DNA of 54,932 nucleotides from an uncultured Spartobacteria bacterium (GTDB lineage Bacteria; Verrucomicrobiota; Verrucomicrobiia; Chthoniobacterales; Chthoniobacteraceae). The stretch spans positions 1 to 54,932 of the forward strand of contig CAIRYQ010000035.1 in NCBI GenBank assembly GCA_903882875.1. Reading direction: 5' to 3'. Positions 11,370 to 54,932 of the stretch are shown here, piece after piece; positions within the stretch are counted from its first letter, which is position 1, and each line of letters opens with the position of its first letter. The position numbers and the translations under genes are program-made. The notes beneath the pieces are model-generated. The model made no database searches. It was not told where the DNA came from and saw nothing but the letters and a program-made list of their open reading frames with translations.

Positions 11370-11532
11370 GTGTGGTGCGCCCGGCGCGACGGGCACGGTG
11401 ATGCAGTATCACCCGCGCCGCCGCAGTGTCCATCACGTCGCGAGGAAATCGCGGCCTGCGCACGAACCTGTCCTCCCGTGTTCCTGCATTTCCTCCGTGT
11501 CATCCACCGCGCGTTCCGCTACGTGACGCCTG

Positions 11533-11892
11533 ATGTCCAACCTCGGCCCCATCCACACCTACCGCTCCGAGGTGGACCAGATCATCCGCTTCGGCGGCAG
11601 CACGCGCGAGACCACCGTCCGCCGCGCCTTCCACTCGCTCATCAATGCCTACGCCCGTCCGCGCGACCTGTTGCTCGTGGAGGAGCTGCCTTACTACAAT
11701 CCGCGCCGCAAGAAAAGCGTCACACCCGACGGCACGCTGAAGAACATCCTCCGCCTCGACTACGGCTTCTGGGAGAGCAAGGACACCGACGACGATCTCC
11801 ACGAGGAGATCGCAAAGAAATTCGACAAGGGCTACCCGGACTCGAACATCCTCTTCGAGGACTCGCAGACCGCCGAAGCTACGACATTTTAA
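11533..11892 (+). pseudogene. N-terminal fragment of a type ISP-like adenine DNA methyltransferase
   Basis: The 119-residue frame has 'YRSEVDQIIRFGGSTRETTV', 'ARPRDLLLVEELPYY', 'PDGTLKNILRLDYGFWESKD' and 'GYPDSNILFEDSQTA'. This is the start of the long N6-adenine methyltransferase / restriction proteins of the type ISP or Eco57I-like kind, normally around 1000 residues. Similarity ends at 'EDSQTA', and the frame stops five codons later, at the edge of an inserted type II restriction-modification pair. The matching C-terminal part lies at 14084-14789. Without the SAM-binding and catalytic motifs this piece cannot methylate DNA. It diverges from the ABC transporter, with ~160 bases between the starts. 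Confidence 0.8.
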
Positions 11893-11911
11893 GCATTCAA
11901 ATCCACAAGTT

Positions 11912-12574
11912 ATGCCAGCACCGCTTCCGCCGCTCACCATTACCGATCTTCAGAAGGAAGCTCGGGCCTTCGCCATCGCTGAATCGGCGCACGCGGAACC
12001 GAGCTTGTTCGGAGTAACCGATGGAAAGGCCGTTGGCACGTATCTCGAACATAAATTCCAAACGGACCTGCTAAACCGTTACGCTTACCCGAGAGGCAGC
12101 TCTGCCAAGGGGATTGATTTTCCGGGCTTGGACGTGGACATCAAAGTTACGAGCATTCGGCAGCCGCAGTCGTCCTGCCCGTTCAAGAGTGCGCGGCAAA
12201 AGATCTATGGGCTTGGGTATTCGCTGCTCATTTTCGTTTATGAAAAGACGGACGACGCGAAGGCACAGGCAGCGCGCTTGAACATCCTTCACACCATCTT
12301 CATCGAGAAGGATCGCACCGCTGATTTTCAGACGACTTCGGGATTGATTCGCCTTTTGGAAAACCATGCGAATCGCGACGATCTCCTCGCATTTTTCGCA
12401 GAGCGAATGCTACCGCTCGATGAAATCGCAGCGGGCATTCTCGCGGATGAAGTTCTCCGCACTCCGCCGCAACTCGGGTATCTTACTATCTCGAATGCGC
12501 TTCAGTGGCGGCTCCAATACAGTAGGGCCATTGAGCAGGCCGGTGCCGTCCACGGTCTGCTCCGTTTGAAATGA
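11912..12574 (+). CDS. Probable type II restriction endonuclease
   Basis: This is a 220-residue protein directly upstream of, and overlapping by 4 bases (ATGA), a DNA methyltransferase. The core 'GTYLEHKFQTDL' followed by 'GIDFPGLDVDIKVTSIRQ' gives a PD-(D/E)xK-type layout: E in the helix, D before the strand, then D-x-K in 'DIKVTS'. After it comes 'SARQKIYGLGYSLLIFVYEK'. This fits an REase with recognition specificity unknown. The start 'MPAPLPPLTITDL' follows the disrupted methyltransferase frame by 19 bases. The coding style is less GC-biased than the surroundings, consistent with acquisition. The alternative, a nuclease of another defence system, is less likely given the partner. Confidence 0.7.
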   Translation: MPAPLPPLTITDLQKEARAFAIAESAHAEPSLFGVTDGKAVGTYLEHKFQTDLLNRYAYPRGSSAKGIDFPGLDVDIKVTSIRQPQSSCPFKSARQKIYGLGYSLLIFVYEKTDDAKAQAARLNILHTIFIEKDRTADFQTTSGLIRLLENHANRDDLLAFFAERMLPLDEIAAGILADEVLRTPPQLGYLTISNALQWRLQYSRAIEQAGAVHGLLRLK

Positions 12575-14100
12575 AAACATCCAATAAAGTTGAGTTCGGC
12601 GACTTCCAGACGCCACTCGCGCTCGCGCATGAAGTTTGCGAATTGATCCGGCGGCTAGGCGAAGATCCGAATGTCGTAGTGGAGCCGACCGCCGGTCGAG
12701 GAGCGTTCCTCGTCGCCGCCGCTGACAAGTTTCCTAGTGCGACGTTACGGGGTTGGGAAATCAACTGCGACTACGTGACCGATGCCACGGTGGCGCTCGA
12801 CACTGCAAATGTCTCCTCGCGATCTTCGATGACATGCCAGGACTTCTTCACCTGCGATTGGGAAGCAGTACTGGCGGCGCAGGACGGGCGTGTGCTCATC
12901 CTCGGCAACCCGCCGTGGGTGACGAACTCGGGCGTCGCAGCCATTGATGGCACCAATCTGCCGGTGAAAGAAAACTTCATGGGGCTGCGCGGCATCGCGG
13001 CGCGCACCGGAAAATCCAACTTCGACATTTCCGAGTGGATGCTCATCCGTCTGCTCCGAGGACTCCGCGGGCGACCCGCGACGCTCGCCATGCTTTGCAA
13101 GACGGCGACGGCCCGGAAGTTTCTCCGCTATGCGTGGCAGAACGATGGCCGGATCGCTGCTGCCACCCTCTATCGGATTGATGCAGCCGAGCATTTTGAT
13201 GCTTCCGTGGATGCCTGTCTGCTCTATTTGCGGACTGGTTCCGCTGGTCCGCAGGAGGCCGACATTTATCCATCCCTTTCAGCCCGCGAACCAGTCAGCC
13301 GTATCGGTCTCGCCGGTGAGGAACTTGTGGCGGACATCCGCGCATATCGCGCATTGCGTCATCTTGAAGGGCTGTCTCCCTTCCGTTGGCGTTCGGGTGT
13401 GAAACACGACTGTGCCGCCATCATGGAACTCGTGAGAACACCAGATGGAGGTGTTGAGAATGCCGACGGACAAGGCCTTGATCTGGAAGCTGATTACCTC
13501 TTTCCGATGCTTAAGTGCAGCGACCTTGCGAATGGACGCACCATCGCGAAGCGACTGGTAATCGTGACACAGCGCTTTGTCGGTGATGACACTGCGGCCA
13601 TCGCCCGCCATGCTCCGCGCACGTGGACTTACCTGCAAACCCATCGCGACCGCTTTCAAGCCCGCAAAAGCTCGATTTACAAAGGGCGCGTCCCCTTCGC
13701 CTTATTCGGCATTGGGGAATACGCATTCGCACCTTGGAAGGTTGCGGTGTCGGGCCTGCATCGCTCGGGCCGCTTTCAAGTCGTTGGCCCGATGAATGGC
13801 CAGCCCGTGTTTTTCGACGATGCCTCCTACTATCTTCCCTTCGAGCGCGAAGAAGATGCACAACTGGTGGCCGACATATTGAACTCGCCCCTCTGCCAGC
13901 GGTTCCTAGCGTCGCTGGTTTTCACCGACTCCAAACGTCCCTTCACCGTCGAGCTCTTACAGCGACTGAACCTCGCTGTCATTGCCAACGACGCTGGGTT
14001 CGGTCTTCGCTGGCAGCAGCTTCAACGATCCAATTTCGCGATTTCGGCTAATCTGCCGCAAATCGAATTTGTGATGGAAGAGCCTGGGCGTTCCACTTGA
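12571..14100 (+). CDS. N6-adenine DNA methyltransferase (type II R-M partner)
   Basis: This is a 509-residue protein that transfers methyl from SAM to adenine in DNA, protecting sites cut by the adjacent endonuclease. Motif I is visible in 'VVVEPTAGRGAFLVAA' and catalytic motif IV is 'NPPW' in 'LILGNPPWVTNSGV', as in gamma/TaqI-type enzymes. The region after residue ~200 would hold target recognition ('FFDDASYYLPFE', 'ILNSPLCQRFLASL'). It starts with ATG overlapping the REase stop, giving translational coupling. Its own 3' end overlaps the re-emerging frame of the disrupted type ISP-like gene at 14084, so the module sits precisely inside that gene. No regulator (C protein) is seen. Confidence 0.85.
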   Translation: MKTSNKVEFGDFQTPLALAHEVCELIRRLGEDPNVVVEPTAGRGAFLVAAADKFPSATLRGWEINCDYVTDATVALDTANVSSRSSMTCQDFFTCDWEAVLAAQDGRVLILGNPPWVTNSGVAAIDGTNLPVKENFMGLRGIAARTGKSNFDISEWMLIRLLRGLRGRPATLAMLCKTATARKFLRYAWQNDGRIAAATLYRIDAAEHFDASVDACLLYLRTGSAGPQEADIYPSLSAREPVSRIGLAGEELVADIRAYRALRHLEGLSPFRWRSGVKHDCAAIMELVRTPDGGVENADGQGLDLEADYLFPMLKCSDLANGRTIAKRLVIVTQRFVGDDTAAIARHAPRTWTYLQTHRDRFQARKSSIYKGRVPFALFGIGEYAFAPWKVAVSGLHRSGRFQVVGPMNGQPVFFDDASYYLPFEREEDAQLVADILNSPLCQRFLASLVFTDSKRPFTVELLQRLNLAVIANDAGFGLRWQQLQRSNFAISANLPQIEFVMEEPGRST

Positions 14101-14789
14101 GCGATTCATCGCTCACTGTGGCGACCCGAAGATCACCAAGCGCGACCTTTTCCACTACACCTACGCCGTGCTGCACCACCCGGCCTACCGCGCGAAATAC
14201 GAGGTGAACCTCAAGCGCGAGTTCCCGCGGCTGCCGTTTTACGGGGACTTCCGCCAATGGGCGAAGTTGGAGCCGGGCGCTCATGGAACTGCACCTCGGC
14301 TACGAGCAGGCCGCGCCCTTCGCCCTCGCCCGCGAGGACCGCAAGGAACCCGTGAGCAAGCAGCCCGACCTGCTGGCTGGCGCGAACGCGCCGGTGGAGC
14401 GTGACCTCCGGGCACGCTTCGATCTGAGTGCGCCGACCGGGAACGCGCCCGGAGGTCGCGTTCCACCGAACGACAAGCCCGCGCTGAAGCCGAAGCTCAA
14501 GGCGCTCAAGGACACGGGCAAGATCGAGATCGACGCCACGACCACGCTGCGCGGCATCCCGCCCGAGGCGTGGGACTACAAGCTCGGCAACCGCAGCGCG
14601 CTGGAATGGGTGCTCGACCAGTGGAAGGAGCACAAAATCAGCGACCCGACCGTGGCGGAGAAGTTCAACACCTACCGCTTCGCCGACTACAAGGAGCCGG
14701 TGATCGCCCTGCTCCACCGCGTCTGCACGGTGAGCGTGGAGACGATGAGGATCGTGCGGGCGATGCCGGGGCTGAATGAGCCGAAGTAG
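14084..14789 (+). pseudogene. C-terminal fragment of the type ISP-like methyltransferase, frameshifted
   Basis: From 14084 a frame reads 'DPKITKRDLFHYTYAVLHHP' then 'NLKREFPRLPFYGDFRQWA'. Near 14275-14281 it shifts to another frame that continues 'LMELHLGYEQAAPF', 'IPPEAWDYKLGNRSALEWVL', 'AEKFNTYRFADYKEPVI' and 'VCTVSVETMRIV' to a TAG at 14787-14789. Together these form the conserved C-terminal region of long type ISP-like adenine methyltransferases. The N-terminal piece is at 11533. The middle several hundred residues, including the SAM and NPPF motifs, are missing and replaced by the type II R-M pair. The frameshift shows the relic is no longer under selection. Confidence 0.85.
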
Positions 14790-15200
14790 GGCGGGTGCTA
14801 TTACTGCGGGAGGCTGCGAGGAAGCATCCCGAGGCATTGAAAAATCTTTGAAAACGGGATTGACACAAACGGTGAGCCCGCACAGCGTTTCGGCGTTCCA
14901 AACAACAATACGTTGACCATGAACACCCCCGCTGCCCCTCGGACGCCGGTTCGGAATGACCGGTGTGAGTCCGGGCTTTTCCCTGTGTGGCGGGTGTTGG
15001 CCGGACGGTTTCCCGAGGGCGGGAAATCGGGATCGGCCTTGCGGGCTGGGGCGGTCCGGCTGTTTGCAGGCGGATTGTTCCCGGTTTCTGTCGGTTCCGG
15101 TGGTGGCCGGGGGCTTCGGGCTTCCGGGCGGATGGGTTTTGGCTGGGTTCGGAGGGCTTCGGCCCGCCGCTGGAAGGTCACAGGTGACGGGCATGGTGAA
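14790..15200 (+). other. Gene-free stretch before the first 21-bp array
   Basis: About 410 bases follow the relic's stop. I see no convincing gene. Frames that stay open here have no recognisable protein pattern and run on into the repeat array simply because its unit is a multiple of three. 'TTGACA' occurs at about 14860 without a matching -10 box. The stretch is rich in GGC/GTT words such as 'GCGGGTGTTGGCCGG'. Confidence 0.4.
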
Positions 15201-15220
15201 TCTCCCCGCGGGGAGATTCG
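15201..15220. repeat. Perfect 20-bp palindrome at the head of the array
   Basis: AATCTCCCCG is followed immediately by its exact reverse complement, with no spacer. The right arm's last bases, AGATT, are also the beginning of the first 21-bp repeat unit. It could be a protein-binding site or a cruciform-forming end of the array. No T-run follows, so a transcription terminator is unlikely. Confidence 0.8.
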
Positions 15221-15467
15221 ATCCGGTCGCGGTCGGATTCGATCGGACTGTCGTCCGGTTTGATCCGGTCGAAGGCAGATTCGATCTCGCCAGCATCAGA
15301 TTTGATCTCCCCGTCATCAGATTCGATCCAATGGTCGTCCAATTCGATCCGGTCATGGTCTATTTCGATCTCCTTGTCGTCCTGTCGAATCCGACCCTGG
15401 GGAGATTCGATCTTCCCGGAGTCCGTTTTGCCTCTGTGGTGGCTGGATTCGATTGCCCTTTGACCTG
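15216..15467 (+). repeat. Array of 12 degenerate 21-bp repeats (GATTCGATC type)
   Basis: Twelve units, each exactly 21 bp, run head to tail. The most constant part is AGATTCGATC at the unit start, followed by variable bases and often GTC at the end. Units 4, 5, 6 and 10 are closest to consensus, and units 9 and 11 are the most decayed. GAT-TCG-ATC is itself an inverted repeat with a 3-base centre. A 21-bp step places every site on the same DNA face. The unit length is divisible by three, so frames stay open and spell 'RFDxxxx' heptads, but I regard this as a by-product. A second array of identical geometry is at 54544-54795. The 'MARKKRTSP' gene lies 323 bases downstream. Confidence 0.85.
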
Positions 15468-15559
15468 AGCGCCTATGCCAACGCTGCTTCCGAACAGCCC
15501 GGTGGAACGTGCGCTCCGCCGCGCGTTTCCTTCCGCCTTCGGGCGGTGTTCTGTTGTGA

Positions 15560-15662
15560 ATTTGGAAGCCATGAATCCAGGAGACGGGGGCATTTCAGAG
15601 CAGGGGCTTGGGCCTCACTTCCGCGCCTATTTCTTCCTTTCGTGGCTTCATGGCTTCCAAAT
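15560..15662. repeat. 16-bp perfect inverted repeat enclosing 71 bases (MITE-like or hairpin)
   Basis: ATTTGGAAGCCATGAA at 15560-15575 is exactly reverse-complemented at 15647-15662. The enclosed 71 bases have no gene. The size and arms would suit a small non-autonomous element or a long-looped RNA hairpin in the leader of the gene at 15791. No target-site duplication is obvious. Confidence 0.6.
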
Positions 15663-15790
15663 GAGGTTTCTGCCCGCCTTTGTGCAGTCCCACTCCGAAG
15701 CGTGCGCGGAGCGCCCGCTCCACCTTTTCCAGGCCGTCCGCCCGGCCAGGTTCCTCCCCGGAACATCCAACACCAAACCCAGTACATCAC

Positions 15791-16156
15791 ATGGCTAGAA
15801 AGAAACGCACATCACCCACAGTGGATGCCGCGAAGATTCGCGCGGCTTCCCTCAAGTCCATTGACGCGGCACTCGACCTCGGCAACGGGCTCACACTGGC
15901 CTCCTACAATGCCGCCATCGCGGCGACGGAGGGGCAACTGGACACCTACAACACGAACCTCTCCGATCTGGACGAGCAGTTGAACGGCCTCGAAGCCGGC
16001 GAGAAGACGCTGGCGGACCTGAGCGAGAGGATGCTCTCCGGGGTGGGGTCGAAATTCGGCAAGGACAGTTCGCAATACGAGCAGGCCGGCGGCACGCGCA
16101 AGAGTGAGATCAAGCGCGGGCCGAAGAAGGGGGCGAAGGGAGGCGCGCAGAAATAG
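15791..16156 (+). CDS. Small 'MARKKRTSP' helical protein of unknown function
   Basis: This is a 121-residue protein beginning with the basic segment 'MARKKRTSPTVDAAKIRAAS', then a helical middle ('LTLASYNAAIAATEGQLDTY', 'LDEQLNGLEAGEKTLADLSE') that looks like a helical hairpin or coiled coil. It continues with 'VGSKFGKDSSQYEQAGGTRK' and ends in a Lys/Gly-rich tail. No signal peptide or membrane segment is visible. Similar proteins seem frequent in Verrucomicrobia, from memory and not checked. Both termini being basic could suit DNA or RNA contact. It lies downstream of a 21-bp x 12 array, as does the FN3 gene at 53717. I chose the ATG at 15791 because the upstream open frame is unstructured. 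Confidence 0.75.
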   Translation: MARKKRTSPTVDAAKIRAASLKSIDAALDLGNGLTLASYNAAIAATEGQLDTYNTNLSDLDEQLNGLEAGEKTLADLSERMLSGVGSKFGKDSSQYEQAGGTRKSEIKRGPKKGAKGGAQK

Positions 16157-16276
16157 CAACGAGCGATGTCTTCCGCGCAGCGGTCCCATCCCGCTGCGCG
16201 GGAGATGGCAGATCCGAAAATGGCAAATGGCAAATGGCAGAATTGAAGGCGTAATTTCCAAAAAACACGATTCCCT

Positions 16277-16921
16277 ATGGCAAAGTATGAACGCTTTGAG
16301 GATCTGCCGGTGTGGCAGGAGGCGGCGCGGCTTTATGATGTGACGCTGGATCTGCTGGAATCGCAGGGGGTGGCGCTGTCGGCGGGGTTTCGCAATCAGC
16401 TCGATCGGGCGGCGCTCTCGGTGTCGAACAACATCGCGGAGGGCTTTGAGCGTTCGACGTAGGCGGAGCTGCTGGCCTTCATCGCCATCGCGCGCGGCTC
16501 GGCGGGGGAGGTGCGCTCGATGATGGCGGTGGTGAAGGATCGGGCAAAGCTGAAGCCGCACGCGGCGGAGCTGTCGCGGATCCGCTCGCTGGCGGAGTCG
16601 TGCTGTCGCCAGCTCACGGGCTGGGAGGGCGCGCTGCAGAAGCTGCCCTTTGACGGGCCGCGGCATCTGCCGGAGAAGGAACGGCGTGGGCGCGAGCAGC
16701 AAAGGAAGGCGGATGATTTCCGGCAGGATTTCCTGCGGATGCTGAAGCCGGGGCATCCGCTCTACGACACGCCCGAGGCGCGGGCGGCCAGGGGGGATGG
16801 CAAAGGGCAGATGGCAGATGGTAAAGGGCAGGGAGAGGATGGCGAAGGGCAGAGGAAGGATGGCAAAAGACAGAGGGAAGATGGTGAAGGGCAGCAGGGG
16901 AATGGAGGAGGCCCGAAGTGA
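16277..16921 (+). pseudogene. Four-helix-bundle (S23 / IVS-encoded type) protein with in-frame TAG
   Basis: The frame starts 'MAKYERFEDLPVWQEAARLY' and continues 'FRNQLDRAALSVSNNIAEGF', the hallmark of the four-helix-bundle family found in 23S rRNA intervening sequences and elsewhere in genomes. At 16460-16462 a TAG interrupts 'FERST-stop-AELLAF'. Beyond it the same frame carries the rest of the family ('AIARGSAGEVRSMMAVV', 'ESCCRQLTGWEGAL', 'GPRHLPEKER') and stays open to TGA at 16919-16921. One nonsense codon therefore splits an otherwise full gene. The C-terminus has an extra tail of 'DGKGQ'-type heptads made by a 21-bp tandem repeat. Function of the family is unknown. Confidence 0.8.
16797..16894 (+). 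repeat. 21-bp tandem repeat encoding a Gly/Asp/Gln heptad tail
   Basis: After a 14-base partial unit (ATGGCAAAGGGCAG), four 21-bp units follow, each ending with a version of GATGGYRAAGGGCAG. In the frame of the four-helix-bundle gene each unit gives a heptad such as 'GEDGEGQ' or 'RKDGKRQ'. The word ATGGCAA is shared with the inverted-repeat arms at 16218 and 17036, so the tail was probably built from the same heptamer. Confidence 0.75.
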
Positions 16922-17067
16922 TGCGGCGCGGCATTCCCTGCCGGTCATCCGCGAGCCACCGGCCATCTACCCCGCTGGCCGCACTTTCATCTGCCGTGCT
17001 GTGCGGTCTGCCGTGCTGTCGTCTGCCATGAGGTATGCCATTTGCCATCTGCCATTTCTCCCCTGAC

Positions 17068-17310
17068 ATGGGATTCCACATCGTGAGCATTGATGCGCCG
17101 CAGTGTTCGCTCTCGTGCAGGGACGGGCAGCTCACTTGCCGGGGGGATGAGAAGCCGCGGACGATGCCCGTCGAGGATGTGGCGAGCATCATCATCACGA
17201 GCTTTTCCGCATCGCTGCACAGCCATCTGCCGCTGGAGGCGGCGCGGCATGGCGTGACGCTGATCCACGGCGAGAAATTCAAGCCCGCGAGCATCCTGCT
17301 CCCTGCAAAG
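17068..17310 (+). pseudogene. cas1: Truncated cas1 (N-terminal ~80 residues)
   Basis: The ATG at 17068 opens 'MGFHIVSIDAPQCSLSCRDG', then 'VEDVASIIITSFSASLHSHL' and 'LEAARHGVTLIHGEKFKPAS'. This is the N-terminal beta-rich domain of the CRISPR adaptation nuclease Cas1, normally around 300 residues. Similarity ends at 'ILLPA', a few bases before the 3' end of the convergent ferredoxin gene at 17321. The metal-binding Glu/His/Asp residues of the C-terminal helical domain are absent, so it is inactive. I found no cas2, effector gene, leader or repeat-spacer array in the window. It abuts the inverted-repeat segment at 17057, and a local rearrangement probably brought the ferredoxin operon against the stump. 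Confidence 0.8.
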
Positions 17311-17320
17311 CCAAGGGGGG

Positions 17321-53716: not shown

Positions 53717-54352
53717 TCACACCGCCATCCCTGTCGCCGGGTCGCTCAGGGGGCCCTGGTGGTTGCCGGTGCTGACGGCGCAGACTTGGAACCAGTAGGT
53801 GTGCCCCGGCAGAAGCCCCGTCGCGGTGAAGCTGCTCGCGCTCGGCGTCCCGATCTGCAGCATCTTCGTCGGGTCATAGGTGCCCTCGCACATGAAGACG
53901 AGGTAGAGGCGCGGCTTGGGGCGCACGGCGTTCCACGAGAGGTCGAGGGTGTGCAGGGTGTCGCCGATGGTCACGCTGAGGGCCTGCACCTGTGCGATGG
54001 CGGCCGCGGGGCCGGAGACGCCGGGGTCGTAGGTGGGCACGGTGGTGGTGGACATGAGCGCCTTGTCGCCCTTTGTGTTGCCTTCCACCCTCTGGAGATA
54101 AAGCTCGAATGCCGAGTTCCATGCGGCTTCGGCGGTGGTCTGGTCGGTCACGAGTTTCGTCACCGCGGCCTGTGCGACGGCGAGATCGCTGGCGGCCTGC
54201 GCGAGCGTGCCATTGGCGGTGGTGAATGTGGCGAGTTCCGCCGTCACATTGCCGATGCCCGCGTTGCCCGCGGAGGCATCGGCGATTTCTTTCCCGCGCG
54301 TGGTCTTGTTCGGGATGGTGTCGTTCTTGAGGTCACGTTTGAACTTGCTCAT
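53717..54352 (-). CDS. Small fibronectin type III protein
   Basis: This is a 211-residue protein with no signal peptide. The basic start 'MSKFKRDLKNDTIPNKTTRG' is followed by an Ala/Thr-rich helical hairpin ('AELATFTTANGTLAQAASDL', 'AAVTKLVTDQTTAEAAWNSA') and a C-terminal FN3-like domain ('LDLSWNAVRPKPRLYLVFMC', 'SFTATGLLPGHTYWFQVCAV'). It resembles, from memory, a multi-copy verrucomicrobial family. It is preceded at 54544-54795 by a 21-bp x 12 array, the same arrangement as the 'MARKKRTSP' gene at 15791, which also has a basic start and helical middle but no FN3. The long open frame through the array is not counted. ATG 54352. Role unknown. Confidence 0.8.
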   Translation of the reverse strand: MSKFKRDLKNDTIPNKTTRGKEIADASAGNAGIGNVTAELATFTTANGTLAQAASDLAVAQAAVTKLVTDQTTAEAAWNSAFELYLQRVEGNTKGDKALMSTTTVPTYDPGVSGPAAAIAQVQALSVTIGDTLHTLDLSWNAVRPKPRLYLVFMCEGTYDPTKMLQIGTPSASSFTATGLLPGHTYWFQVCAVSTGNHQGPLSDPATGMAV

Positions 54353-54543: not shown

Positions 54544-54795
54544 CGCCGTCCGTTGTACCTGCAATGCGCCGCGTTTTGCCCTCAACATGGCGCGTTGCAC
54601 CTCCAATCTGCCGCGTGTGACGCACGACGCGGCGCATTGTGGGTGCAACTCGGCGCGTTGCAGGCGCAACGCCGAAAATTGCAGTCACAACGCACCGTGT
54701 TGAACGTGCGATCCGCCGCGTTGGAAGTGTCACACGGCGTGTTGAGGGTACAACTTGGCGCGTTGTGAGTACAATTTGCCAAATTGTACTCCAAC
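54544..54795 (-). repeat. Array of 12 degenerate 21-bp repeats (TTG-N6-CAA type)
   Basis: Twelve units of exactly 21 bp. Read on the plus strand the consensus is about four variable bases, then GCGCGTTG, three to four variable bases, GTRCAA. Eight of the twelve units have an intact inverted pair TTG-N6-CAA and the others keep most of it. Copy number and step equal those of the array at 15216-15467, but the unit sequence is different. On the minus strand the frame spells 'TRRVxxx' heptads because 21 is a multiple of three. The FN3 gene starts 192 bases downstream on the minus strand, and that spacer holds no gene. Confidence 0.85.
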
Positions 54796-54932
54796 CCTGC
54801 AAATTGGAGCGGTTCAGTCAGAGTGTGGCCGTTTTGAGATGAAGGCGCGACAGCGCGGTGGAGCGCGTCGCTCCGCGCGCGCTTCCTCCGGCCGCAAGCA
54901 AGCCTTGCAATCCACGCCGAAACGCGCGCGGA
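54796..54932. other. End of window: no gene seen, GC hairpin
   Basis: No coding pattern is recognised. GGAGCG-CGT-CGCTCC around 54859-54873 forms a short strong hairpin. The words after it (CGCTCCGCGCGCGCTTCCTCCGG) resemble those at about 15509-15535 downstream of the first array, which may be chance in GC-rich DNA. Confidence 0.35.

Follow-up and report, generated by a model that had tools for sequence, protein, structure and literature searches.

What can a tandem array do when its units have drifted apart in sequence and each of them still begins exactly 21 bp after the last? This question is raised by a locus in the window, that is, the whole stretch of 54,932 bp analysed here, which is contig C35 of the genome of an uncultured Spartobacteria bacterium (G000, 5.78 Mb in 129 contigs, referred to below as the own genome). 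Its named close relatives are Chthoniobacteraceae/Spartobacteria MAGs. A previous sequence-only reading had interpreted the array as an ordered protein-binding scaffold, an interpretation that is partly supported by the analysis described here.

Arrays of the analysed window

The window contains the following features:

11460-17319: accessory segment of 5,860 bp, which holds array 1, the MARKKRTSP gene and array 3
15216-15467, forward strand: array 1, 12 units of 21 bp, core ATTCGATC, zero indels
15501-15728: inverted-repeat element, between array 1 and the MARKKRTSP gene
15791-16156, forward strand: MARKKRTSP... gene of family C, 121 aa, mostly helical by prediction
16790-16920: array 3, about 6 units of 21 bp, after a broken 23S_rRNA_IVP gene
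53717-54352, reverse strand: fn3 gene of family B, helical N-terminus and fibronectin type III domain
54544-54795, reverse strand: array 2, located 5' of the fn3 gene; 12 units of 21 bp with a dyad-symmetric core, CAACGCG.CGCGTTG
54840-54932, forward strand: dispersed hairpin (REPIN-like) element at the contig end, past the gene-distal end of array 2

The twelve contiguous units without indels that had been described at array 1 are indeed present, and their lag-21 segment score of 34.3 compares with at most 9.5 among 300 first-order Markov resamples of the 2 kb around the array. Mean pairwise identity between units is 0.54, each unit matches the consensus at 11-19 of 21 bases, and in the core ATTCGATC columns 2, 3 and 5-8 are conserved in 10-12 of the 12 units and column 4 in 8. 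The GAT-N3-ATC half-palindrome previously noticed in these units is visible, but the dyad symmetry of array 1 is not significant (p = 0.255). The array does lie upstream of the MARKKRTSP gene, but does not abut it: the ATG at 15791 stands 323 bp past the array end, with the inverted-repeat element in between. The outer arms of this element resemble a dispersed hairpin repeat of the own genome, GGTGGAgCG..CGCTCCGC.

A second array of the same count and step had also been reported, and array 2 reaches a score of 36.3 (resample maximum 9.2) with a significant dyad (0/200 permutations, as locus L156). Twelve is not a fixed count, however, given that its paralogue at C17:72488-72760 (L067; L036:12488-12760), 81% identical, has one whole unit more; the neighbours of this paralogue are unrelated genes, with no family gene among them. 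Array 3, missing from the earlier reading, scores 29.8 (resample maximum 8.9) and overlaps the read-through end of the broken 23S_rRNA_IVP frame. That gene (16277-16801; four-helix bundle, PF05635, E 1.3e-19) carries an in-frame TAG at codon 62 and is bordered by short repeats of 7 bp and 21 bp.

The accessory segment, which also contains the broken 23S_rRNA_IVP gene and a gene for a type ISP restriction C-terminal specificity domain (14283-14789), is missing as a single block from the close relative G004, where the flanking genes (90.7% and 89.4% identity) are joined. A query containing the hairpin at 54840-54932 gave 62 own-genome matches, corresponding to the window copy and 61 other places. 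This repeat, GGTGGA.CGCGTCGCTCCGCGCGCG, frequently occurs as inverted pairs of about 100 bp, and 5 of 10 copies outside the window have a 21-bp array within 1.5 kb, always on the same side. In an Rfam search of the window the arrays had no match at gathering score, the sole match being a cobalamin riboswitch (RF00174, 30662-30851, 50.4 bits).

A dominant period of 21 bp

An autocorrelation scan of 798,558 own-genome bases gave 18 lag-21 peaks at a match of at least 0.55, compared with 0-2 peaks at each lag not near a multiple of 21. Degenerate arrays in the scanned 0.8 Mb are thus predominantly of period 21 bp. This sample is 84% coding by a coarse gene call; one of the 18 peaks falls inside a coiled-coil-like gene (L004:19327), and the 18 refined arrays are intergenic by called genes, save array 3 and an edge of L036. 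No peak at this match level appeared in congeners (154 kb), other genera of the family (98 kb) or other families of the order (85 kb), and the high array density of the own genome is therefore not general. Among array-bearing family loci, a selected set, 21 is the best lag between 10 and 40 in 46 of 48. Sites stay in register at whole helical turns, with 36 of 603 units agreeing better with their consensus when shifted out of register, by a margin above 0.1. Within units there is no 10.5-bp sub-period, as lags 10-11 show no excess (0.250 and 0.248). One fn3 family member of the own genome (L164, G000:C17:98995-99429) stands behind a homogeneous 22-bp array.

Linkage of arrays to small orphan gene families

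Placement at random with respect to gene starts, set beforehand as the outcome that would speak against a functional scaffold, was not what was found. With an upstream score of at least 15 as array call, an array precedes the gene at 51 of 61 family loci entered, a pool that counts one locus twice (L019 = L076) and includes a fused remnant (L092 = L010) and one locus, L012:15908 (P0009), whose membership in family A, B or C is not established. The corresponding figures for control genes are 15/546 in the own genome, four of these being family genes or the fused remnant, and 0/210 in relatives (genus stretches 0/103, family 0/67, order 0/40). An array lies downstream of the family gene at 1 of 46 array-bearing loci, and upstream arrays are often 12-230 bp from the gene start. 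The ten loci below threshold belong to families A (L094, L084, L130, L133), B (L157, L166) and C (L025, L170, L171, L172). Left out of the pool were L134, L139-L141, L145, L146, L149, L153, L155 and L164, and L158 was not included either; among the loci outside it, L145 has an array (score 43.5) and L153 has none.

The linkage is not restricted to the own genome. When the genus was searched with P0006, one of the small own-genome proteins encoded behind arrays, relatives turned up in 8 of 10 genomes and at 26 loci in total, one with its start placed by hand (L098). Of those with an intact called gene, 15/17 have a 21-bp array upstream, the exceptions being L084, with none, and L094, with only 173 bp. 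Nine loci without an intact called member were set aside (L089, L090, L091, L096, L099, L101, L105-L107), and three of these, L089, L091 and L099, do have a 21-bp array. An independent scan of 84,980 genomes used the closer alignment A2 and hence reaches close relatives only; it returned 19 loci, some of them shared with the genus search and two in a Nitrosomonadales MAG. An array stands upstream at 15 of these, and the remaining four have just 3-173 bp of upstream sequence. In a further set 11 of 20 loci were parsed and 9 had an array, several duplicating loci of that scan. Finally, a profile search of 288 Verrucomicrobiota genomes placed family A in 6, mostly with arrays, family B in 8, some matches being large fn3 proteins taken as unrelated (L159-L163, open frames of 977-3,150 aa), and family C in 6. 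Recurrence of the downstream families, proposed earlier as a check, is thus borne out, and the array-gene pairing is itself repeated across Verrucomicrobiota as well as in a Nitrosomonadales MAG.

The pairing is uneven. In family B, four of the six distinct loci have an array, and one further locus has a 22-bp array; in family C the count is 5 of 9. The MARKKRTSP family is the weakest case of the array-gene link, and array 1, from which the question arose, is a weaker example of the class: its dyad is not significant, its gene lies 323 bp away, and four of the nine family C loci lack an array at threshold. The description of this gene as lineage-specific applies loosely, as family C occurs in 3/57 relatives besides the phylum genomes mentioned. 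Moreover, a recognised family gene follows just 5 of the 18 non-coding arrays sampled in the own genome and the array 2 paralogue lacks one, which counts against a strict pairing. Several own-genome arrays do stand 5' of genes whose small products have a helical N-terminus and an FN3-like C-terminus.

Proteins encoded behind the arrays

Family A proteins, of about 230 aa, combine helices with a fibronectin-III-like domain. In the AlphaFold model (mean pLDDT 87.8), helices at residues 11-28, 36-76, 104-117 and 123-129 are followed by a C-terminal sandwich, and residues 140-233 superpose on an FN3 domain (5e53_A; Z 10.8, rmsd 2.1, 86 aligned). The VIA-align matches cover almost only residues 133-233, so that the fold assignment, by which the C-terminal domain is modelled as FN3-like, is limited to that part. 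The family A members scanned have no Pfam, PHROGs or PADLOC match, save weak PHROGs matches of single proteins; family C has no Pfam match, and family B an fn3 match for one member, the window gene at 53717-54352 (PF00041, E 4.8e-6, 27.1 bits, cut-off 25). The MARKKRTSP protein is modelled at low confidence as two helices (mean pLDDT 66.8). Up to 14 family protein matches occur per genome. Neither tblastn in 72,556 plasmid records nor a pattern scan of viral contigs found a family A relative.

Some loci carry additional features. An in-frame leader of aromatic-rich short repeats (LWSNGTLWTSGALWGP, RWDDPNLRWGEP, LDTGWRLDSGILLD) lies between array and gene at L144, L147, L128, L136, L154 and L188. 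Genome G285 has three blocks in which a second gene of 85 aa (MPFDPSLPQANTEIDAEQMRDQLN...) follows the family gene (L144:2348-2605, a position on the turned strand, as well as L147 and L150), and a conserved inverted repeat separates the two genes. At L010:12181-13392, an array with its leader and the opening ~25 codons of a family A gene continues into another protein, which looks like the outcome of recombination.

Free sequence and whole-unit change

The comparison of units between arrays used 46 of the 51 arrays, five near-duplicates having been dropped, and the same set served for the core/linker and coding tests. At best rotation, consensus units match at 10.01 of 21 positions, compared with 10.03 for shuffled units, and a motif common to all arrays was accordingly rejected, none being found beyond chance in this set. 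Two pairs reach at least 16/21, L103/L095 and the paralogues L147/L150. A start, ATGAACACCCCCGC, is common to two array loci; the genome has two exact and three one-mismatch matches to it, and only the two exact ones adjoin arrays.

The G285 blocks provide one case of different arrays in a similar setting. L144 and L147/L150 are 97-98% identical over the 164 bp upstream of the array and 87-90% identical over 1.27 kb downstream, gene included; despite these similar flanks their arrays match at just 10-11/21, in the same register. Conversely, among the orthologues L088, L093 and L108 of three congeners the array is kept unit for unit and the sole internal gap is exactly 21 bp, and the paralogue pairs compared (array 2 with its C17 paralogue, and L010/L073) differ by whole units. 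Free variation of spacing in related arrays, which would have contradicted the proposed selection on spacing, was therefore not seen. Higher-order structure of 42 bp is also present in arrays. An apparent polarity, with old units distal and young ones proximal, had been perceived by eye in several arrays and was dropped (Wilcoxon p = 0.55; adjacent-unit identity distal/mid/proximal 0.614/0.652/0.631 in 38 arrays).

The expectation that every array would have its own cognate protein fares worse. Proteins 86-90% identical can sit behind unrelated arrays, although at L103/L095 proteins 89% identical go with related units (14-16/21) and the orthologues L088/L093/L108 have their array in common. 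Since units of different arrays are unrelated and near-identical proteins are found with unrelated arrays, a one-array-one-protein match is unlikely, and it was rejected because array identity is not predicted by that of the proteins. Most close pairs show faster divergence in the N-terminal half than in the FN3 half, whether their arrays are the same or different, so there is no evidence for co-change. No DNA-binding protein for the arrays was identified.

These patterns bring in two other explanations. The arrays might be functionless, self-perpetuating minisatellites in a lineage whose slippage and repair favour 21-bp steps, the genes merely having long and tolerant upstream regions. Gain and loss of whole units and the 42-bp structure are what such a process would produce; most own-genome arrays are not beside a family gene, and hairpin repeats share intergenic regions with arrays (5/10 loci outside the window, and the array 2 paralogue). 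Nevertheless, the association with orphan families is found again in distant genomes and is confined to the 5' side, degenerate arrays with about 54% unit identity hold register without indels, and neutral slippage would not be expected to yield the dyad, the covariation and the core/linker contrast presented below. This explanation is a serious rival, with a little less than one chance in four. On the other hand, arrays could be sites of binding or exchange through which a cassette of array and small genes is moved or diversified. This would suit the threefold occurrence in G285 of a block with the 164-bp upstream flank, array, family gene and 85-aa gene, the duplication of array, leader and gene start between L010 and L073 with a different gene after about 25 codons, and the position of array 1 within a 5.86-kb segment missing from G004. 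Against it, no target-site duplication, block-wide terminal repeat or recombinase was identified, and family A had no match in the plasmid and viral searches. A recombination or mobility site is considered quite unlikely.

Dyad symmetry, RNA and coding potential

Column-permutation tests give a dyad (p<=0.05) for 24 of 51 arrays. In the 46-array set, the core at 2-6.6 bp from the dyad is more conserved than in permuted controls (+0.035 vs +0.004) and the linker beyond 8 bp less so (-0.063 vs -0.013). The excess of complementarity over control peaks at separations of 5 and 10-11, the latter being one helical turn. Symmetric positions also covary, with a mean z of 1.86, above 2 in 12/24 and below -2 in 0/24 dyad-selected arrays, in a statistic that ignores the relatedness of units and is applied to sets chosen for dyad p<=0.06.

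Symmetry of this kind could also arise in RNA. If the repeats formed part of a 5' leader, they might fold into a row of 21-nt hairpins that, for example, bind the downstream protein in the manner of a type III antitoxin RNA. The position directly 5' of one small gene, often within 12-230 bp of its start, agrees with this; hairpins would also fit the dyad arms of about 5 bp, set around some 4 central bases that lack excess complementarity, as well as the covariation, subject to the same neglect of unit relatedness. In contrast, the sense strand has no bias of G-U over A-C mismatches (123 vs 104), the protein has an FN3-like domain and, in the members scanned, no match to a ToxN-type nuclease, and unit length and family are unlike type III systems. 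A terminator-like site between array and gene, proximal and on the sense strand, was found at 3 of 45 loci, and intrinsic terminators after the array were rejected as a regular feature. Dyad covariation together with the absence of a G-U bias favours a dyad at the DNA level over a transcribed hairpin, though without settling the matter. The RNA array is also a serious rival, at about one chance in five.

Given that 21 bp equal seven codons, the arrays might instead code for proteins with heptapeptide repeats; one sense frame of array 1 is open and would read VRFDPVV. Sense-frame stops are rarer than expected (221 vs 316.6, ratio 0.70, with 0.73-1.01 in control triplet sets), a deficit that may be overstated because column shuffling breaks linkage within units, and a sense frame is open in 41/46 arrays compared with 29.2 expected. 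However, the synonymous ratio is 1.013 in open sense frames and 1.020 in closed ones, codon-phase conservation is significant in 0/46 arrays, and five arrays of 11-33 units, L069 and L116 included, have no open sense frame at all. With the synonymous and codon-phase tests empty despite open frames and rare stops, a coding array was rejected as the main explanation, and it is regarded as very improbable.

A step-defined DNA element as the favoured explanation

The observations to be explained are a strict period, a place 5' of the gene, unrelated units, dyads in roughly every second array, whole-unit change and a single case in which similar flanks enclose different arrays. The explanation favoured here, at a probability of about 0.42, is that the arrays are a cis-acting non-coding DNA element selected for its geometry, probably a same-face assembly platform that acts on the downstream gene. 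Dyad-like sites would recur every 21 bp, and because this step amounts to two turns of B-DNA, all of them would lie on one face of the helix. A dimeric, laterally cooperative protein may assemble along the array or, alternatively, the assembly may involve a DNA conformation that needs no single fixed sequence; the outcome would be control of the downstream gene or organisation of the local DNA stretch. The lineage would renew its arrays through whole-unit slippage and homogenisation, and by such renewal the sequence is free to change and the step is not. Several points tell against this geometry reading or make it difficult. A significant dyad is absent from about half of the arrays, array 1 among them, no binding protein was found, and a reader of specific sequence is not easily imagined where nothing conserved is recognised. 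The low share of own-genome arrays in front of a recognised family gene, the units that fit better out of register, the 22-bp array of L164 and the ten family loci below threshold count in the same direction.

A bolder version is that the array is written rather than inherited, as a self-renewing module in which machinery with a 21-bp ruler, from the host or among array-associated proteins, would keep making dyad arrays of arbitrary sequence in front of helical/FN3 orphans. This version is given little more than one chance in ten. If true, it would define a class of cis-elements with free sequence, in which the helical step alone is inherited and function is exerted by geometry alone.

Selection for geometry would have practical consequences. 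Regulatory DNA is normally known by its letters, and the dozens of arrays considered here share a two-turn step and, so far as tested, no letters. If the geometry reading is right, such an element would be missed by motif and homology searches and detected by a simple period-21 scan, and altering the step should matter more than altering the sequence. The arrays, tied to particular families across distant bacteria, also constitute a first handle on unnamed small protein families.

Comparison with known systems

A search at the level of titles and abstracts, with subscription journals and preprints outside its scope, found no precedent for such arrays in the literature, and several known systems offer partial parallels. 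Iterons of plasmid origins are direct repeats bound by Rep proteins. Like the present arrays, they are spaced about two helical turns apart on the same face, lie just 5' of a small gene and vary in sequence by replicon. Unlike iterons, the arrays occur in many chromosomal copies with no rep gene or replication function seen, near-identical proteins can have unrelated units, and the gene product is a helical/FN3-like orphan; no replication initiator was found among the family proteins, families A and C having no Pfam match and the family A model consisting of helices and FN3.

Type III toxin-antitoxin loci such as ToxIN also place a tandem repeat array directly 5' of one small gene. They differ from the loci studied here, where every family locus except one has a 21-bp unit, with no G-U bias and no regular terminator. 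The family proteins scanned had no Pfam or PADLOC match to a ToxN/AbiQ-like nuclease, and the structure comparison covered mostly the FN3-like C-terminal part.

Partition centromeres of the ParMRC type consist of tandem repeats bound by a ribbon-helix-helix protein. Regular repeats 5' of the genes that they serve are common to both, and binding side by side, a feature of these centromeres, is what is proposed for the arrays. In contrast, no ParM/ParR-like genes lie beside the arrays examined, and the arrays are chromosomal, multi-copy and unrelated between loci. Bacterial minisatellites or VNTRs share gain and loss by whole units and higher-order repeats; what separates the arrays from them is one period for unrelated sequences, 5' linkage to gene families and dyad symmetry. 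Finally, CRISPR arrays have a fixed step and a sequence renewed over time, whereas the present arrays lack constant repeats with unique spacers, what changes is the unit, and the scanned proteins lack a PADLOC match. A fixed step combined with free sequence and tied to orphan families thus sets the arrays apart from iterons, type III arrays, centromeres, VNTRs and CRISPR alike, none of which has this combination.
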